Source of the DNA: SAR324 cluster bacterium
GTDB lineage: Bacteria > SAR324 > NAC60-12
Length of the DNA: 48,117 nt
Assembly: GCA_016764995.1 (NCBI GenBank)
Contig: JAESQU010000215.1
Location: 1-48,117, forward strand
Reading direction: 5' to 3'
Shown here: piece by piece, positions 18,084 to 36,788 of the stretch
How the letters are laid out: every line of letters starts with the position of its first letter
Position numbering within the stretch: position 1 is the stretch's first letter
The notes under the pieces: generated by a model
The model's database searches: none
Told to the model about the DNA's origin: nothing
The model's input: the letters and a program-made list of their open reading frames with translations, nothing else
Program-made: the position numbers and the translations under genes

Positions 18084-18115
18084 AATAAATGTTTGCAATT
18101 CTGCTAACATTTATT
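18084..18115. terminator. Bidirectional terminator hairpin between cyclase and gspN
   Basis: AATAAATGTT 18084-18093 and AACATTTATT 18106-18115 are perfect 10-base inverted repeats with a 12-base loop, sitting between the convergent ends of the cyclase gene and gspN and including the gspN stop. On the minus strand a TTTT follows within a few bases; on the plus strand the arm itself ends in T-rich sequence. The stem is AT-rich, so it may be a moderate terminator or protect 3' ends. Confidence 0.5.
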
Positions 18116-19000
18116 TCTTGTAGGAAAGTTGAGACGATTGAGAGACCCTTTTAAATTGACTTTAATTGTTTCACCGCACTGAAATGAGCGTAGCATTGTT
18201 GAAATACTGCTAATTTCTTCCTTGAGAGAAGCAGCAGGAGTGAGTTCAAAATTCAAATCAATTAATGACATTTGCGGACGTTTCTCATTTAGCCGAATTG
18301 TACCTTCAATTGTACCTTCCAAAGATCCTCTTAAATGAATCTTCTTTATGGCAATTAAGGGGCCGAGTTGCAGGTCAAACATAACTTCTGAAAAAACAAG
18401 TTCTGGAAATTGCAGATTAAAAAGCGCGGCTCCACCGGAAATGCGGATTTGCACATCATTTAGCTGACCCTTCAGATTGCCTTCCGGAAAGCGGGATTGT
18501 TGTTGCTGTATTGCCTTAATGTTATCAATTTCAGATGACAAAGAAAGACTCCCTGAGATAAATGCATATGGAAAAGCGGCAATTAAAGGAACTCGTTCAA
18601 GCTGCACACCATCAAGAGAGATATCCATTGTTTCCCAAGTCAGCAAGTCGGTAGATGCTTCGATTGTTCCCCCATGAAGTTGTCCAAGTATTCTTGCTTT
18701 TCCGGATGTGATAACGGAGGCAAAAGGAACCTCTATATTTTCAAGTATGAGCAAACGGACATCAGGTGTTCCCGCCAGCCATTTAGGAGTACGCAGGGTA
18801 ACTTCCGGAGTGCTTACTTTGAGCCATCCTAACTCAAAAGCTTCAATCTCAACGGGAATTCCGGTTTGATTAGTTAATCGTGTTTGTAGTGCGTCAGCGA
18901 TTGATTTTCCGGGAAAATTCTGTTTAAAACCCCAAAAGGCGAGCACTAAAATAAGAGCAAATCCAATGATAAATAGCACTAAACGCTTTATGAATAACAT
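18104..19000 (-). CDS. gspN: Type II secretion system protein GspN (298 aa)
   Basis: One N-terminal membrane helix (about residues 5-25, VLFIIGFALILVLAFWGF) is followed by a periplasmic beta-rich domain of the AsmA-like GspN type. Its start, KSIADALQTRLTNQTGIPVE, and the later TPKWLAG and LNDVQIRISGG segments follow the delta-type GspN pattern. GspN is an accessory inner-membrane component of some type II secretion systems. It is the last gene after gspM, 6 bases apart, and its 3' end lies in a strong hairpin. GspL, which usually precedes gspM, is absent here, since gltA occupies that place. Confidence 0.75.
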   Translation of the reverse strand: MLFIKRLVLFIIGFALILVLAFWGFKQNFPGKSIADALQTRLTNQTGIPVEIEAFELGWLKVSTPEVTLRTPKWLAGTPDVRLLILENIEVPFASVITSGKARILGQLHGGTIEASTDLLTWETMDISLDGVQLERVPLIAAFPYAFISGSLSLSSEIDNIKAIQQQQSRFPEGNLKGQLNDVQIRISGGAALFNLQFPELVFSEVMFDLQLGPLIAIKKIHLRGSLEGTIEGTIRLNEKRPQMSLIDLNFELTPAASLKEEISSISTMLRSFQCGETIKVNLKGSLNRLNFPTRNKC

Positions 19001-19006
19001 CTTTCG

Positions 19007-19492
19007 TCAACCTCCATGTTGCTTGTGTACCTGAAAAGAGGCACGTACCTGTCGGTTACCTGGGCTTATACTGATGCTTAAATGAGAAGTCCGTAAAACA
19101 GGACGATGATTTTCTAACTGATATAGCATAGACAATAAATGATCCAGTTTAAGTCTGTCTAAACCTACTTTGACACCCTCAATTCCCGCTTGAACGTTGG
19201 TCAATACGTTAAGTTGTAAATTATCCTGAATTTCAAGTGTGCGGGCAATGTTTTCTACAAAAGAGCTCAAGGCTTGTGGCATTACAGGCGCAGTTGGAGT
19301 ACGCCGTACTTGCTCCCATTCACTGGAGAGAGATCGTATTTGCTTGATTTGGAGTTCTTGCTTTTCAAGTTGTAGCAGCAACAATTTTTCCTCGCGGTTG
19401 AGATGCTGCACCCCCCACATTCCTGCCAGCACAAAAACGAGCAAAAACATGAAAGCAATAAGAAGCTGCTCCCTCATTGATAAATTTGACAT
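19007..19492 (-). CDS. gspM: Type II secretion system protein GspM (161 aa)
   Basis: The layout fits GspM: a short cytoplasmic start (MSNLSMREQLL), one membrane helix (about 10-28), a coiled segment rich in Leu, Glu and Gln (about 30-60), then a small ferredoxin-like periplasmic domain (VKVGLDRLKLDHLLSMLYQL ...VRASFQVHKQ). GspM links the platform proteins GspL and GspE in the inner membrane. It is directly upstream of gspN and 28 bases after gltA, so it may be cotranscribed with gltA. The assignment relies on topology and the gspN neighbour more than on strong motifs. Confidence 0.7.
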   Translation of the reverse strand: MSNLSMREQLLIAFMFLLVFVLAGMWGVQHLNREEKLLLLQLEKQELQIKQIRSLSSEWEQVRRTPTAPVMPQALSSFVENIARTLEIQDNLQLNVLTNVQAGIEGVKVGLDRLKLDHLLSMLYQLENHRPVLRTSHLSISISPGNRQVRASFQVHKQHGG

Positions 19493-21407: not shown

Positions 21408-22691
21408 TCAGGAAGAGTCAGGACTAACCGGCGTTATGCTAAAACTGTTAATTCCGGAAATCGATTGTCGTCCACTAGCTTGACGTCCAATCACTCTCCA
21501 GTACAGTTTATTTTTCTCTTTTGCTCTCATCAATCCCATTGCCATTCCGGGCAGTTCACCTGCCAAGGGTACAAGTTCCTTGTCTGCAATCCAGCGGTTT
21601 CCCTGCGGCAAGTCGAAAAATGATCCGGAGTCTTCAAATTTTTCATCAACTCCAACTTGTATTTTGAACTCACTGAAGGCAAGACTGTCCCACTGAAAAA
21701 GGAAGAGTCCATTTTCCGCAAAAGAAAATTTGTCTGTCGGTAAAAGCAGCTTTATGTCACTGAGTTTGAAAACATTTGATTTTGCAATATTGTTATTTTC
21801 CTTCAGCTCTTCGATTTCATTTTCAGGATCAACTGTTGCGACAATTTGATATTTTCCCAACAGTTGATCATCAGGAAGAATGTATTCCAAGTTGAAAGTC
21901 GTAATTTCGCCAGGCGCCAAAACACGTGTGCTGGGCATGGCAATAACAGACTTTCTCATCGGTTGTTTTACATTGTAATATTGAATCTTTGTTGCAATGT
22001 CCTTCACAATATCTCCGCCTACATTCATTAAATTCAGGCGTAAGATGAGCTTCTCTCCACGAAGTGCGTGTTTAGGAAGAACCTGTACGGATTCCCAGCG
22101 TAAATCTGGAGGATCAAATTTCAGGGGGGTGATGATGCGTTTACCGGAAACTCTCACTCCAGTTGCTAATTGAGTTTTTGCGACTTCCAAGTCTTGAGGT
22201 GAAGCGATGTAGAAGTATCTTTCATCTCCTGCGGTTGTGTTAAGTAAAATACGTTTGAAACGAGAATCCCAAACTCGTACAGAAATTTGATAACGTCCCG
22301 TATTTTCCAAATTAATCTCATGCAGAACACGAGCTGTGTCATGAGCCTGAATCGTATAGACTTTGCGGTGACGCTTCTTTTTCAACTCCTGACCGTCCAC
22401 TCTCACTTTAATTTCAACACCTATTTCCTTCTGGACTTGACCTTGATTTGCGATGGCAGTTTGAACCAATTGTGTGTCACCGTGTTTTGGACAATCAGGA
22501 TTGCTCATTGATCTAAGAATGGAGTCTGGAGAGTCAATAGTCATGTCCGGACCATCCGGCAGAGGGCATGTTTTTGAAAGTACAATCGCGATGATTTTTA
22601 GTTCAGCAGACTGGGTTGCCGGTGACAAGGTGGGTAACAGAAGAGTAATTATTCCGGATAAAATCAGTTTCAGTAGTAAAATCCGGGACAT
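21408..22691 (-). CDS. Exported CARDB-domain protein (427 aa)
   Basis: A signal peptide covers residues 1 to about 28 (LLLKLILSGIITLLLPTLSPA). At least two Ig-like CARDB-type domains follow, marked by GQVQKEIGVEIKVRVDGQEL (about 88-107) and LRLNLMNVGGDIVKDIATKI with ENEIEELKENNNIAKSN (about 300). The C-terminal third begins LLLPTDKFSFAENGLFLFQW and looks like another beta-sandwich of the kind found in FN3-like or carbohydrate-associated modules. The protein is therefore periplasmic or surface-bound and adhesive or structural. A cysteine pair (CPLPDG...DCPKHG) sits near the N-terminus. It is separated from scpA by 228 bases and followed closely by fxsA. Confidence 0.65.
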   Translation of the reverse strand: MSRILLLKLILSGIITLLLPTLSPATQSAELKIIAIVLSKTCPLPDGPDMTIDSPDSILRSMSNPDCPKHGDTQLVQTAIANQGQVQKEIGVEIKVRVDGQELKKKRHRKVYTIQAHDTARVLHEINLENTGRYQISVRVWDSRFKRILLNTTAGDERYFYIASPQDLEVAKTQLATGVRVSGKRIITPLKFDPPDLRWESVQVLPKHALRGEKLILRLNLMNVGGDIVKDIATKIQYYNVKQPMRKSVIAMPSTRVLAPGEITTFNLEYILPDDQLLGKYQIVATVDPENEIEELKENNNIAKSNVFKLSDIKLLLPTDKFSFAENGLFLFQWDSLAFSEFKIQVGVDEKFEDSGSFFDLPQGNRWIADKELVPLAGELPGMAMGLMRAKEKNKLYWRVIGRQASGRQSISGINSFSITPVSPDSS

Positions 22692-23834: not shown

Positions 23835-26546
23835 TTAATCAGAAAGTTCGGGAAGCCCCATATCTTCCAGCACTTGATTGGATATTTTATCGAGTTCATT
23901 TGCTTTTTTGAAACGGGAACTGGCACGTTGATTAACTCTTTCCAAATCTGCTTTTGTCCGGATAATGGTTGGACGAATAAAAATGAGCAGGTTAATTTTT
24001 TCAAATCCATCTTTTTTGCTGCGAAATAACCATCCAATTAAAGGGATATCTCCAAATCCCGGAATTTTACTCCGTTCACGAACCATTTTTTCTTTGATCA
24101 AACCACCAAGTACAATAATCTTTCCATCTTCTGCAATCACAGAGGTTTTGATGGTACGTTTAAAAATCGTGATTGGGTTGGCTGCCGGGTTCACAACATC
24201 ACTGGACTCCTGGGCAATATCCAGTCGTATACTGTTTTTTCCACTGATCTGCGGTTTAATTTCAAGTTTGATACCAACTTCCTTAAATTGGTACTCTGTT
24301 GTGGTAATATTACTCGCGCTGGTAACAGTTTTTGGTGAAACAGGCACGACGGAAACAACACTAATGTTAGGTACTTCACCCTCTTGGGGATTGTTGATAA
24401 TCATCAACTGCGGATTTGCGAGGACATTTACATCATTGTTATTTTGGACTGCTTTGACAAATGCACCGAAGCTAAAAAATTCTTTTCCTCCAATACTGAT
24501 TGTATTGCCGTTCAAGACTCCAATTGTATTTTCAGCGGCAGTAGTTGCCGCGGTACCTCCTGTTGTGGCGTCTCCCGTGAAAGCTCCTCCTCCAGGGAAT
24601 CCACCCGTAATTATTCGATTTCCGCTAGTAGCTCCTGCGGCTTTCCAGTTTATGCCTAAATCTAAACTTTTTGAAAGCGTAACTTCCATGATAAGCGCTT
24701 CAACATAAACCTGCATTCTCGGCACATCAAGTTCAACTATAATCTGATCCAGAGTTTTGAAGGCGTCCGCCGGTGCAAAAATCAAAAGGGAATTTGTTGC
24801 CTCATCGGCGCTGATTGAAATGTCAGACTGTGTTCCTGAACCGGCAGTTTTGGACAGTGCTTTACTAAGTTGCGGCTTTTCATCTTTCCGGGAAACCTCT
24901 GAAATTCTTCCGGTAACTTCTTTAAGTAAAACAGCAATGTCTTTAGCTACCGCGTGCTGGAGATGATAAAGTTTAAAATTACTGCGAACTTTTCCGCTTT
25001 CCTGGAAAACATCGAGTTGTTTTATCAAAGATAATATTCGTTCGATCTCAAGCCGTCCCGCGATAATGATCAAAGAATTCAAACGTTCTTCTTCAATAAT
25101 TTTAACCGGACTTGCTTTTGCGGTATTACCCTCACCTTTTCCGGCAACAACTCGGTCCGAAAATATTTTTGTCAGGAGATTTGCCATTCTCTTGGCAGAA
25201 GTGTTTTTCAGCGGAATCAACTTGAGCTGTGTTTCACCGGAAGTTCCTTGTTCTGTGTCAAGTTTTGCGATCAGTAGGAGAACCCTGTCAGTTGCCAAAC
25301 GATCCGCGATGATGATCAGGGCATTCAGTCGAGGTTCCGCTATTATTTTAACCGGACTGCCTGTCGCGGTTGCTCCCTCTCCCTTACCAGCAACAACCTT
25401 ATCCGCGAATATTTTTGAAAGCAAAGGAGCCAATGTCGTGGCGGAAGCATAGTTTAATTGCTGCAGCATTATCTGACGGTTCCCTCGTGGAATATCAAGT
25501 TGATCGACCAAGTCGATAATTTGCTGAGTTGTAACAGGATTTGCAATAATAATCAGGGCATTAAAAGGGGCAAACGGAACAATTTTTATTGAAGTTGTTT
25601 TGGGGAAAACAGTCGTAATTAGCGGAACCAGCTTTGCCGCGTCAGAATATTTTAATTCATGAATAGTTGTTTTTGCGCCTTCTACAGGGACATCAACTTT
25701 TTCAATTAATTCAATAATTTCTTCCGTTGTTTCACGATTTGCGACGATGAACATGGAATTTAAGCGAGCCTCAATCAGCAGTTTGAATTGCGTCGGCTTG
25801 CCGTTACGTACTAAATTTGAAAACAATTCAGAAACGGTTTTGTGAATTTCTGTAACATCGTTGTGTAAAATTTTCTGTAAAGTAACAATCTGCTCCACCC
25901 CTTCCGGTGCGGAGGTGTCAAGCATCTCAATGAGTTCCACGATACGGCTTACGTTGGACTCAACATCGATTACAATCAACATGTTCATCGGCTCATAAAC
26001 GAGCAGAACTCCTGTCTTGGAGAAAATTGGCTGCAATGTTGACTGTATCCCCTTGAGGTCTGCATGAACAATGGGAATCAGACGCATCACATAGTTTCCA
26101 CCTTTAGCGCTGATCTTCCCGCCGTCCTTTGAAATCGGCAACCGCGAGAAACGTGCGTCTGCTGAAGGAAGTATTTCCACGACTTTACTCCCTTTTTTGC
26201 GCACCATTGCCAAACCTTGACTGGCCAGTATTTTTTCAAAGAAGAAAAATGCGTCTTGCGGAGTTACTTTGAAATTGCGTGGAGCCGTAATAGACATTTG
26301 TCCGCGCATATTCTTTTCTTCGTAAACAAAAACGGTTCCGGTATTTTCCGAAATTATTTTAATGAATTCTTTGAGGATGATTGTTTGAGGCAGGTTGATG
26401 CTGACCTTTGAGCTGGGTTTCTTTTTTGCTGCTTCAAGTTCAAAAGGCTGCGAAATATGAAACAGTAAAAGGCAAAGTAAAAAAAATCCGGACAACCAAT
26501 TATGTTTCCGGAGCGACTTGGAAATAGAGGTAAAAAAGAAAATCAT
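23835..26546 (-). CDS. gspD: Type II secretion secretin GspD with extended N-domain array (903 aa)
   Basis: This outer-membrane channel subunit has a signal/anchor region to about 38, an N0 domain (about 47-127), then N1/NolW-like domains at about 151-210, 220-287, 293-353, 358-431, 440-513 and 524-608, and a secretin core at 609-865 with VNVLANPQLMIINN and VLGGLIKEKMVRERSKIPGF. Usual GspD proteins have three N1-type domains and about 650-750 residues. The fourth and fifth domains share VVAGKGEG, SPVKII and RLN-LIIIA, which suggests a recent internal duplication (DNA 25008-25475). The core contains a Gly/Thr-rich loop at 640-672. It starts 30 bases after ispD. No gspC, E, F, G or pilot gene is in the window. 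Confidence 0.92.
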   Translation of the reverse strand: MIFFFTSISKSLRKHNWLSGFFLLCLLLFHISQPFELEAAKKKPSSKVSINLPQTIILKEFIKIISENTGTVFVYEEKNMRGQMSITAPRNFKVTPQDAFFFFEKILASQGLAMVRKKGSKVVEILPSADARFSRLPISKDGGKISAKGGNYVMRLIPIVHADLKGIQSTLQPIFSKTGVLLVYEPMNMLIVIDVESNVSRIVELIEMLDTSAPEGVEQIVTLQKILHNDVTEIHKTVSELFSNLVRNGKPTQFKLLIEARLNSMFIVANRETTEEIIELIEKVDVPVEGAKTTIHELKYSDAAKLVPLITTVFPKTTSIKIVPFAPFNALIIIANPVTTQQIIDLVDQLDIPRGNRQIMLQQLNYASATTLAPLLSKIFADKVVAGKGEGATATGSPVKIIAEPRLNALIIIADRLATDRVLLLIAKLDTEQGTSGETQLKLIPLKNTSAKRMANLLTKIFSDRVVAGKGEGNTAKASPVKIIEEERLNSLIIIAGRLEIERILSLIKQLDVFQESGKVRSNFKLYHLQHAVAKDIAVLLKEVTGRISEVSRKDEKPQLSKALSKTAGSGTQSDISISADEATNSLLIFAPADAFKTLDQIIVELDVPRMQVYVEALIMEVTLSKSLDLGINWKAAGATSGNRIITGGFPGGGAFTGDATTGGTAATTAAENTIGVLNGNTISIGGKEFFSFGAFVKAVQNNNDVNVLANPQLMIINNPQEGEVPNISVVSVVPVSPKTVTSASNITTTEYQFKEVGIKLEIKPQISGKNSIRLDIAQESSDVVNPAANPITIFKRTIKTSVIAEDGKIIVLGGLIKEKMVRERSKIPGFGDIPLIGWLFRSKKDGFEKINLLIFIRPTIIRTKADLERVNQRASSRFKKANELDKISNQVLEDMGLPELSD

Positions 26547-33632: not shown

Positions 33633-34073
33633 ATGCCTCGTTTTAGTCTGGAGACGGCCCTGAAAGTACGGGAGCGTCTTGAAAAACTCTACCAGAAAGC
33701 ACTTGCGGAACAGGTGCAACTTGAACAGCAGCATAGAAATAGAAAAAAACTGATGCAGGATGCTTTAGAGATACATAACAATGATTTAGACAAAGCGAAA
33801 ACAGATGGTGTGACATTAAATCAACTCTTAATGGGAGGACATTTTCAGCAGAGAATTAAACAACATTTGGAGCTCACGCAAGATCAACTGAACGAGCAAC
33901 TGGAAGTTGTAGAATTGAAACGTCACGAATTAACTCAAGCAACACAAAAAAAGCGGGTGCTGGAAATTCTAAAGGAAAAAGAAATCCAAAAATTCAAAGA
34001 TGAAACGGAACGTCTGGAACGTTTGGAGGCGGATGAAATTGCCCAGAATTATAGACGATATACTCAGAACTAA
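33633..34073 (+). CDS. fliJ: Flagellar export chaperone FliJ-like (146 aa)
   Basis: It starts MPRFSLETALKVRERLEKLY, the usual FliJ opening (F-x-L-x-x-L-L-x-x-R), and is one long charged coiled coil of about 146 residues. FliJ is the stalk of the flagellar export ATPase and escorts empty chaperones. Sequence conservation in FliJ is always low, so the call rests on shape and on the flagellar genes that follow. The expected fliI is not upstream; a remnant and higBA are there instead. Confidence 0.8.
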   Translation: MPRFSLETALKVRERLEKLYQKALAEQVQLEQQHRNRKKLMQDALEIHNNDLDKAKTDGVTLNQLLMGGHFQQRIKQHLELTQDQLNEQLEVVELKRHELTQATQKKRVLEILKEKEIQKFKDETERLERLEADEIAQNYRRYTQN

Positions 34074-34138
34074 TCAAAATATTGCCTGGATTAAAAGAAT
34101 TATCGAACATATCAATATTGCTTCACAACAGAAATATC

Positions 34139-34738
34139 ATGAATAAAATATTAAATATTATCAATAAATTCAAATTCTTATATTTATTTATTGGAATTGT
34201 AATGCTGGCAAGGCCCGCTTATAGCATACCAACAAGCATCGACGAATTGAAACAATCCATCGGTGCTCTCTGTGCGGATTATGGAATTGAATTTTGTGCG
34301 GTTGCAGTGGATGTCAAAAAGAAAGCAAAGAAACCTCGAAAGTTTACAGAGACCGAGAAAAAAATTCTGACAAGGCTTGCTGAACAGCAAGAACGTTTAC
34401 GTTTGAGAAGTTTGGAATTGGATCGGAGAGAGGGACAGCTCAAGACACTTCAGGAAGATATTCAACGTCAAGTCACTTTGTTGGAAAAGCTGCAGCAAGA
34501 GATTGAAAAGGATATAGCTAAAAAGAAAATACAAGACAATGCGCAGCTAATAAAGGCTGTTGCCTTATATTCAAAAATGGATGCGGCAATTGCAGCACAA
34601 TCACTGGCAAAACTTGATAGAAAAACTGCTGTTAACATCCTGAAACAAATGAAAGAAAAACAAGCGTCATTAGTACTTTCCAGTATGGGGGCAGCTGAAT
34701 CTGCCAGCATTATAGAGGCAATAACAAGAAAAAAATGA
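34139..34738 (+). CDS. motE: MotE-like flagellar chaperone with MgtE-N domain (199 aa)
   Basis: A signal or anchor helix (about 10-28, FKFLYLFIGIVMLARPAYS) is followed by a coiled coil rich in Gln, Glu and Leu (about 75-145) and a small helical MgtE_N-like domain (AVALYSKMDAAIAAQSLAKL, then RKTAVNILKQMKEKQASLVL). MotE proteins of this layout are encoded next to FliJ/FliK and stabilise the stator in some bacteria. ATG 34139 places the anchor at the N-terminus; an in-frame TTG at 34082 is less likely. It lies 65 bases after fliJ and 7 before fliK. Confidence 0.8.
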   Translation: MNKILNIINKFKFLYLFIGIVMLARPAYSIPTSIDELKQSIGALCADYGIEFCAVAVDVKKKAKKPRKFTETEKKILTRLAEQQERLRLRSLELDRREGQLKTLQEDIQRQVTLLEKLQQEIEKDIAKKKIQDNAQLIKAVALYSKMDAAIAAQSLAKLDRKTAVNILKQMKEKQASLVLSSMGAAESASIIEAITRKK

Positions 34739-34745
34739 GATTGAG

Positions 34746-36788
34746 ATGATGGAACCAATTGGACAAAAAGCTGTTATGCCCACGACTGAAGAGGCAATAG
34801 TTGTTGCAAGTGAGTTGGAAGCAGATTCCGGAGAAAGTGGTGAGGATGGAATTTTTGATACTACTCTGAAAGAAATGCTGGCAGAAATTCCTCTGGAGGA
34901 AAACCTGCTTGAAGAATTGCTTGATGAAGATGGCTTGTCTGCCTCACTAAATTCTGCCATCCTGACCCAAAATCAGCTGGATACAGCAGTTGTTGATGCT
35001 AATTTTGGTGCAGTCGATAGCTCGACGATGCCCCTGGAAATGCTTGGAGACGATCTTTGGAAAGAAGATTTATCTTCATTAAAGACTCAGGTGTTGCAAA
35101 AATCAACTCCAATTGCAACAGAATTGATTGAAGTGCTTGATCCGAGGTTTGCCATCGAAGAAAGTAATTTTGAGATTCTTCCGGAAAAAGGTATCGCCGA
35201 AACGGGACTTCAAAACTTATTACAGGAGTCAGATACTGACTCATCCGGAAGTTTGCTGCAATCAGTATTTCATAATGCAAATCCTTCTCAAGCTGCCGGC
35301 GAATTTTCAGCAGATAATCTGCAGAATGTCTTACAAAAAAACGTCAGCCAGTCAATTCAATTGGGACCAGGTGAGATGGAAAATGAGGCGGAGTTCACCA
35401 CAAGTGACCTGAAAATAATCCTGCAAAAAACGGCCAGTCAGTCATTTCAACTGGAAGGTGAGTATGAAATTTCAAAAAGTGATCTTCTACCTGAGACGCA
35501 AAAAAATACTGTTCAACCGCTCAAACTTCAAGACGATAATGTCCTTGTACAAGATCTCAAATCAGTTCTGAAAAATCAGGAAGAAAGTCTTCAAGAGGAT
35601 TTACAAACTGTTTTTCGGCATGGTTCACAGGAAGAAGCGGAAGAGTTTGAAAAACTTGGAGATGATAATCTGCAAAAACTTAAAAGGGCAGAAGTACCGC
35701 TCACTCCAGAAAAGATTAAATTGATGGAAAGCCTTAAAATTGTAGAAAAGTTTAAAGCAACAGATGAAATACAAGTAACAGTGAAAAGTGAAGAAACAAA
35801 AAATTTTCAAGGCAAAGTAAAAAACAACAATATTGAAGGCTTACAAGTCACAGATAAATTTAAGGTCACAGAAGAGTTTCGAGGTGGAACAATTTCAAAA
35901 GTCGCTGCCGGATTTCAAGCCACTGAGAAATTTAAAGTCGCAGAAGAATTTCTAGGCGGAGCAAAAGAAAAAACAGCTGAAGGTTTGCAAGTCACAGATA
36001 AATTTAAAGTCGCAGAAGAATTTCTAGGCGGAGCAAAATCAAAAGTGGCTACCGGCTTTCAAGCCACTGAAAAATTTAAAGTCACGGAAGAGTTTCAAAG
36101 CGGAGTGAAATCAAAAGTGGCTGAAGGTTTCCAAATGACTGGGATAGAAAATACGGGTGATATTTCTGAAAAGGCATCCATACGCCCTTTGAATCAGTTC
36201 AGGACATTGGAGTCTAATGAAACTCAACTTACAAGTAATGCCAAATCTACCATGGATTCAGCCACTCCTTCAGCAATTAATTCCCTCTCCGAAGTTTCCG
36301 GTACGTCGTTAGTCAAGGGAGGCGAAACTACAAAAACCGCAGCAGAGATTTTGCGAGGTACTGACCTTCCATTTAACATGGAGCAGGTAGTGAGTAGGGT
36401 CAGGATACTGCGCGGCAATGGTGTTGAAGAAATGACTCTACGATTACATCCGGAAGATTTGGGCCAAATTACTTTGAAAATCCGCCAATCCGGAGGAGAA
36501 CTCTCGATAGACATGCGCGTTGATAATTTTCTTGCAAAACAATTGGTGGAATCCGGATTTGATGCTCTCCGCAGCAAATTATTAGATCAGGATTTTTCTA
36601 ATCAGGATTTGGCTCTAAACGTTGATATAAACGAACGTGATGCACAATACAGTGGTAATCGAAATAATTCTGAGTTCGAAGAGGATTTGTTTTCTGCAGA
36701 GAGAGGGAGAAATGAAGAAGTTGCGGCTGTGGAAGAAACACCTCGTACTGAACGCAGGACTGATTCAGGACTCAATCTCTACGTCTGA
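34746..36788 (+). CDS. fliK: Flagellar hook-length control protein FliK, repeat-rich (680 aa)
   Basis: FliK measures hook length and switches export from hook to filament proteins. The C-terminal domain (about 545-635) has the conserved MTLRLHPEDLGQITLKIR and VDNFLAKQLVESGFDALRSK. The N-terminal ruler part is long, acidic and low in conservation, as is usual, and carries two repeat types. An imperfect unit around residues 185-285 has the text LQNVLQKN/LKIILQKT. Four 24-residue units at 365-460 are described as a separate repeat. At 680 aa it is long for FliK (commonly 400-500). It is 7 bases after motE and 12 before flgD. Confidence 0.88.
   Translation: MMEPIGQKAVMPTTEEAIVVASELEADSGESGEDGIFDTTLKEMLAEIPLEENLLEELLDEDGLSASLNSAILTQNQLDTAVVDANFGAVDSSTMPLEMLGDDLWKEDLSSLKTQVLQKSTPIATELIEVLDPRFAIEESNFEILPEKGIAETGLQNLLQESDTDSSGSLLQSVFHNANPSQAAGEFSADNLQNVLQKNVSQSIQLGPGEMENEAEFTTSDLKIILQKTASQSFQLEGEYEISKSDLLPETQKNTVQPLKLQDDNVLVQDLKSVLKNQEESLQEDLQTVFRHGSQEEAEEFEKLGDDNLQKLKRAEVPLTPEKIKLMESLKIVEKFKATDEIQVTVKSEETKNFQGKVKNNNIEGLQVTDKFKVTEEFRGGTISKVAAGFQATEKFKVAEEFLGGAKEKTAEGLQVTDKFKVAEEFLGGAKSKVATGFQATEKFKVTEEFQSGVKSKVAEGFQMTGIENTGDISEKASIRPLNQFRTLESNETQLTSNAKSTMDSATPSAINSLSEVSGTSLVKGGETTKTAAEILRGTDLPFNMEQVVSRVRILRGNGVEEMTLRLHPEDLGQITLKIRQSGGELSIDMRVDNFLAKQLVESGFDALRSKLLDQDFSNQDLALNVDINERDAQYSGNRNNSEFEEDLFSAERGRNEEVAAVEETPRTERRTDSGLNLYV
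35838..36125 (+). repeat. Four 72-base (24-residue) tandem repeats inside fliK
   Basis: Units are at 35838-35909, 35910-35981, 35982-36053 and 36054-36125, with a partial fifth unit (GFQMTG) after them. Each reads G-(L/F)-Q-(V/A)-T-(D/E)-KFKV-(T/A)-EEF and then a GG-x-x-K-x-A tail. Units 1 and 3 share GLQVTD, and units 2 and 4 share GFQATE, so a 48-residue pair appears to have been duplicated. The length stays in frame and may tune ruler length. Confidence 0.9.

Follow-up and report, generated by a model that had tools for sequence, protein, structure and literature searches.

The type II secretion system (T2SS) secretin GspD encoded in a stretch of 48,117 nucleotides from a SAR324 cluster bacterium (the whole stretch is called the window below) carries six N-type domains between its N0 domain and its secretin barrel. 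Judged from sequence comparisons, the six-domain array is a clade-wide derived trait and no quirk of one genome; among the other bacteria sampled, this layout is rare. The protein is most likely a secretin of the T2SS whose periplasmic tube has been lengthened, and its predicted function is the secretion of folded proteins as an outer-membrane oligomer. The features of the gene and of the nearby secretion genes, in window coordinates, are as follows.

23835..26546, minus strand: gspD, T2SS secretin with N0, six N-type domains and secretin barrel, 903 aa (TIGR02517, 498 bits)
26427..26546, minus strand: putative N-terminal signal peptide region, residues 1-40, without a lipobox cysteine (from the sequence; helix at 2-32 in the model)
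26154..26399, minus strand: N0 domain, residues 50-131 (PF21305 at 58-119, sub-cut-off; PDB GspD matches at 58-219)
25911..26093, minus strand: N-type domain 1, orthologue of canonical N1, residues 152-212 (Pfam, HMMs, model; N1 clade, UFBoot 100)
25686..25892, minus strand: N-type domain 2, additional, residues 219-287 (Pfam, HMMs, model; N2-type lineage in the domain tree)
25491..25676, minus strand: N-type domain 3, additional, with a short loop, residues 291-352 (Pfam, HMMs, model)
25254..25478, minus strand: N-type domain 4, with the loop VVAGKGEG...SPVKII, residues 357-431 (Pfam, HMMs, model)
25008..25235, minus strand: N-type domain 5, probable copy of domain 4, residues 438-513 (60% identity to domain 4; UFBoot 90)
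24714..24977, minus strand: N-type domain 6, orthologue of canonical N3, residues 524-611 (Pfam, HMMs, domain tree, model)
23958..24452, minus strand: secretin barrel domain, residues 699-863 (PF00263, E 3e-39)
19007..19492, minus strand: gspM, T2SS inner-membrane platform protein (PF04612, 39.4 bits, cut-off 27.8)
18104..19000, minus strand: probable gspN, immediately after gspM (from position, length and general look only; no match in a Pfam search)

A single open reading frame of 903 codons on the minus strand occupies the gspD interval, and the count of six N-type domains before the barrel is real. It had been proposed in a first-pass annotation made from the sequence alone, and both of the checks suggested there, by Pfam and by AlphaFold, bear it out. 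Pfam Secretin_N (PF03958) finds six stretches (total E 8e-62), followed by the Secretin domain (PF00263); a hidden Markov model trained exclusively on out-of-phylum GspDs with three domains recovers all six, at E values of 8e-9 to 1e-18 each; and the secondary structure of an AlphaFold model contains six consecutive beta-alpha-beta-beta-alpha modules (residues 152-209, 219-284, 292-350, 358-429, 440-511, and 522-606). The model is of a single chain, with 21 relatives as input; its mean pLDDT is 62.8, with the N domains mostly at 70-85. As a control, 501 shuffled or reversed copies were searched one by one with a related N-domain model; the 14 matches obtained at E ≤ 0.01 are about the chance level. 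The N0 domain is less distinct: PF21305 matches residues 58-119 (E 5e-6) at 26.6 bits, just below the curated cut-off of 27. The N0-N1 region of solved GspDs also aligns to it, and N0 was counted as present. Low N0 scores are found throughout the family to which the window belongs (f1; Pfam 18-27 bits, vs. 43-61 in SAR324 relatives with three, four, seven, or eight domains), suggesting that the inner-membrane end of these proteins has diverged too.

The first-pass annotation had also allowed for a secretin of another class that only resembles GspD. Models for other classes do match, and the known secretin of comparable ring number, PilQ of Thermus, is not a GspD (PMC5745081). However, the only model whose cut-off is passed is the NCBIfam GspD equivalog TIGR02517, at 498 bits (cut-off 351); PilQ (TIGR02515, 195.6 bits, family cut-off 284.35), SctC (TIGR02516, 128.2 bits, family cut-off 238.45), and MshL all remain below theirs. 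The best structural matches are likewise to GspD, which accounts for all the top hits of a Foldseek search of the PDB with the model (E 1.9e-24). PDB GspD sequences align to residues 58-219 (N0-N1) and 436-899 (N2, N3, and barrel); between the two stretches, three domains are unspanned. In a tree of the barrel part, the protein groups with three-domain GspDs of its own phylum, and gspM lies close by. A PilQ, MshL, or SctC class secretin is therefore very improbable. What sets the protein apart is that six ring-building domains were counted in place of exactly three (N1, N2, N3), the usual GspD number; since the family model does not prescribe that number, the protein was filed as a GspD variant.

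Besides the gspM in the window, other T2SS genes in the same genome include GspG, two GspF, and two GspE-type ATPases, and there is a second secretin gene. GspC-like proteins give NCBIfam matches below cut-off only, with weak PDZ-type candidates, and Pfam PF11356 found no GspC in five SAR324 genomes. The gspD gene is flanked by ispD and scpA in every f1 neighborhood examined, and likewise in one genome of the next family (G003, below). After scpA, downstream of gspD, lies a gene whose product has a CARDB domain and, apparently, a signal peptide (21408-22691, minus strand). It is kept in the genus of the window (79-87%, three loci) and in G040 (56%), and has no match in the gspD neighborhoods examined in other families; it may be an exported partner or cargo of the secretion system. 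On the window's other side (33633-36788, plus strand) are flagellar genes of FliJ and FliK type by Pfam.

For a survey of domain number, N domains were counted by a profile grown within the phylum, by Pfam (for eight examples), and by the outgroup-only three-domain profile; the three are concordant save for one weak domain in G041. In f1, all 21 full-length proteins have six domains, as do five partial ones with a complete array. The resulting 26 of 26 span eight genera, with identity down to 43%. The source assembly of the window is of metagenome type, in 224 contigs, and a misassembly or a faulty gene call might in principle produce such an array, but its recurrence with open frames in 26 independent genomes refutes this. 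Two genomes show irregularities of another kind. In the single-cell genome AG-439-L22 (G024, L033), gspD is interrupted near domain 2, giving two frames and a TAG, and the pieces jointly carry about six domains. The MAG SAR324-CTD7B (L016, same record set as L010) has a second gspD start at a contig end, with 81% identity over 121 residues, probably from a strain mixture.

Elsewhere in the phylum three domains are the rule, with exceptions. In family f2, of the same order, seven genomes have three domains and G003 has eight; an AlphaFold model of the G003 protein (mean pLDDT 46) shows no more than a repeated strand-helix pattern. A further f2 gene, that of G004, lies in two pieces on separate contigs, with about seven domains as a provisional count: the assembly broke it within the N-domain array (L053 and L052, on contigs C411 and C347), and the contig ends are nearly identical, with few differences in some 87 bases, which indicates about seven N domains or more. 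Family f4, of the same class, has three in all genomes but G042, with seven, and four were counted in G041, the f3 genome. In a sample of 60 GspD-like proteins, taken from 58 genomes outside the phylum, 57 have exactly three. The sample was drawn from the GspD-like matches of a 383-genome search, best scores first and long frames preferred thereafter, and is thereby biased towards extra domains. The exceptions are one truncated frame with two domains and two paralogs of one genome (G362; L158 and L170) with five and four; G362 is the sole genome in this sample with extra N domains, and both of its secretins bear a long N-terminal extension. A search of plasmids added E. coli-type and similar GspDs only. 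The first-pass annotation had named, as something that would speak against its claim, a layout shared by most GspDs of the clade; this is the case in the family, and not in the order and class, which mostly have three domains, nor beyond the phylum.

The arrays were enlarged between N1 and N3, most likely on several separate occasions. In the barrel-part tree all SAR324 GspDs fall together (support 0.994), as do those of f1 (1.0), but the neighbor of G003 is a protein with three domains, as are those surrounding G042. In a tree of single domains, the first domains (N1) form one clade with a bootstrap of 100, and the last ones also group, though without strict monophyly. In this tree the extra domains of f1 come from the N2 lineage, as do those of G042; those of G003 come from the N3 lineage. 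A single origin of all the expansions was considered and rejected: the AU test rejects an origin shared with f1 in the case of G003 (p 0.011). It retains one for G042 (p 0.22), but given the three-domain relatives of G042 an independent expansion is more likely. Overall, the extra domains derive mostly from N2, with the first (N1) and last (N3) orthologous to the canonical ones. The extra domains are as well conserved as the barrel core (0.87-0.91 vs. 0.89) and hence under constraint.

Domains 4 and 5 had been described as nearly identical products of a recent duplication. The sequence blocks on which this was based are present as claimed, at 25008-25478, but the description is wrong on both counts. 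In the window protein, 45 of 75 aligned residues are identical (60%). At third codon positions the agreement is 43%. Of the 45 shared residues, 17 have the same codon, where the codon usage of the gene predicts 16.1; with codon sharing at chance, the silent sites have reached saturation, and the duplication is old. In the other genomes of the three genera with a GKGEG loop, the two domains are 50-71% identical within a genome, whereas in the remaining f1 genera the fifth domain differs, with 27-43% identity to the fourth. Domain 5 of the three genera nests with domain 4 in the single-domain tree (UFBoot 90 and 96), and is probably a copy of it in the genus of the window and two related genera. 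It looks as if a copy of the fourth domain had taken the place of the fifth, with the count unchanged at six: the bootstrap values favor this, and the AU test, which has little power on single domains of 71 columns, retains the alternative (p-AU 0.14). The shared loop, VVAGKGEG..SPVKII, is disordered in the AlphaFold model. Its conservation (0.87 in domain 4 and 0.86 in domain 5) equals that of the surrounding domains; the corresponding loop in domain 6 scores lower (0.70).

As to what the extra domains are for, the explanation we lean towards is that the GspD tube was lengthened from three rings to six by tandem duplication, mainly of N2, in the ancestor of f1, and that the benefit was reach. 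The two outer domains, N1 (beside N0, towards the inner membrane) and N3 (joined to the barrel), would have stayed in place, with new rings inserted between them and six kept ever since. If each N domain forms one ring, as in other secretins, the channel would be a stack of N0 and six rings, and the added rings would give a longer tube and vestibule. The pseudopilus would push folded substrates along this longer conduit, and a wider envelope, or one of different build, would be bridged between the inner-membrane platform and the outer membrane. We infer the stacking, the added length, and its benefit by analogy with these other secretins. The wider periplasm envisaged in the first-pass annotation is possible, but it drew no support from three proxies for periplasm width, all of them weak and crude: MotB/ExbD-type stator frames are mostly 214-260 aa regardless of array size; GspC-like frames are about 348-381 aa in f1 and 332-354 aa in other SAR324, apart from a single outlying frame of 436 aa; and in f1 genomes the second secretins have just 0-2 weak N matches, with no sign of lengthening.

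Reach is preferred only slightly to two other explanations. The extra rings could instead give the vestibule a new job: a larger chamber, with room for big or multiple substrates; added constrictions of the lumen, for which the glycine-rich loops of domains 4 and 5 would be candidates, conserved as they are despite their disorder in the model and more so than the loop of domain 6; or docking sites for periplasmic or peptidoglycan partners. The CARDB-domain protein downstream of gspD in the genus of the window and one related genus would fit such a role, but the expansions of other SAR324 lineages employ different domains and loops, and on balance we consider it the less probable account. Drift in domain number is a less probable one again: if each domain forms a self-contained ring, tandem duplications might simply be tolerated, with six a frozen accident. 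The apparently separate expansions within the phylum (to eight, seven, four, and about seven), with their different source domains, are what drift might produce, as is the seeming replacement of domain 5 in three genera. On the other hand, all f1 members examined, across their eight genera, have retained six, the extra domains show the same conservation as the core, and expansions are nearly absent outside the phylum. SAR324 lineages could conceivably tune the secretin tube as a modular ruler, different N domains having been duplicated in separate lineages and six, seven, or eight rings fixed to fit the geometry of the envelope, but we regard this reading as rather doubtful.

T2SS secretins have been described as having N0, N1, N2, and the N3 of the C-module (PMC10550240). 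The window protein shares with canonical GspDs (PulD, XcpQ/XcpD, EpsD) the N0 domain, ring-building N domains, and barrel, orthologous N1 and N3, a passing score for TIGR02517, and a GspM neighbor; it differs in having, at 903 aa, six ring-building domains where they have three. The nearest precedent for six rings is PilQ of Thermus thermophilus, whose six-ring stack, 350 Å long, has been explained by a wide periplasm (PMC5745081). That protein, however, serves type IV pili and DNA uptake and has an additional gate formed by N0/N1 loops, whereas here N0 and six domains are found in a T2SS secretin scoring 196 bits with the PilQ model, for a cut-off of 284. The number of intermediate N domains also varies between machines in phage pIV and type III secretion secretins, with N0 and N3 constant (PMC8563730), although their N domains are fewer rather than more numerous. 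How many periplasmic rings there are is said to depend on the secretin machine, and to be fixed for the T2SS (PMC10550240, PMC8563730); no report of expanded GspD arrays was found in the open literature searched, most subscription journals lying outside it.

Related GspDs with three, four, six, seven, and eight domains in one phylum constitute a natural series for T2SS length. With it one can ask what determines that length, how the platform in the inner membrane and the pseudopilus adapt to a longer channel, and which rings cannot be dispensed with (the first and last are retained in every case). The series also indicates that the length of this secretin tube can evolve, a proposition that can now be tested.
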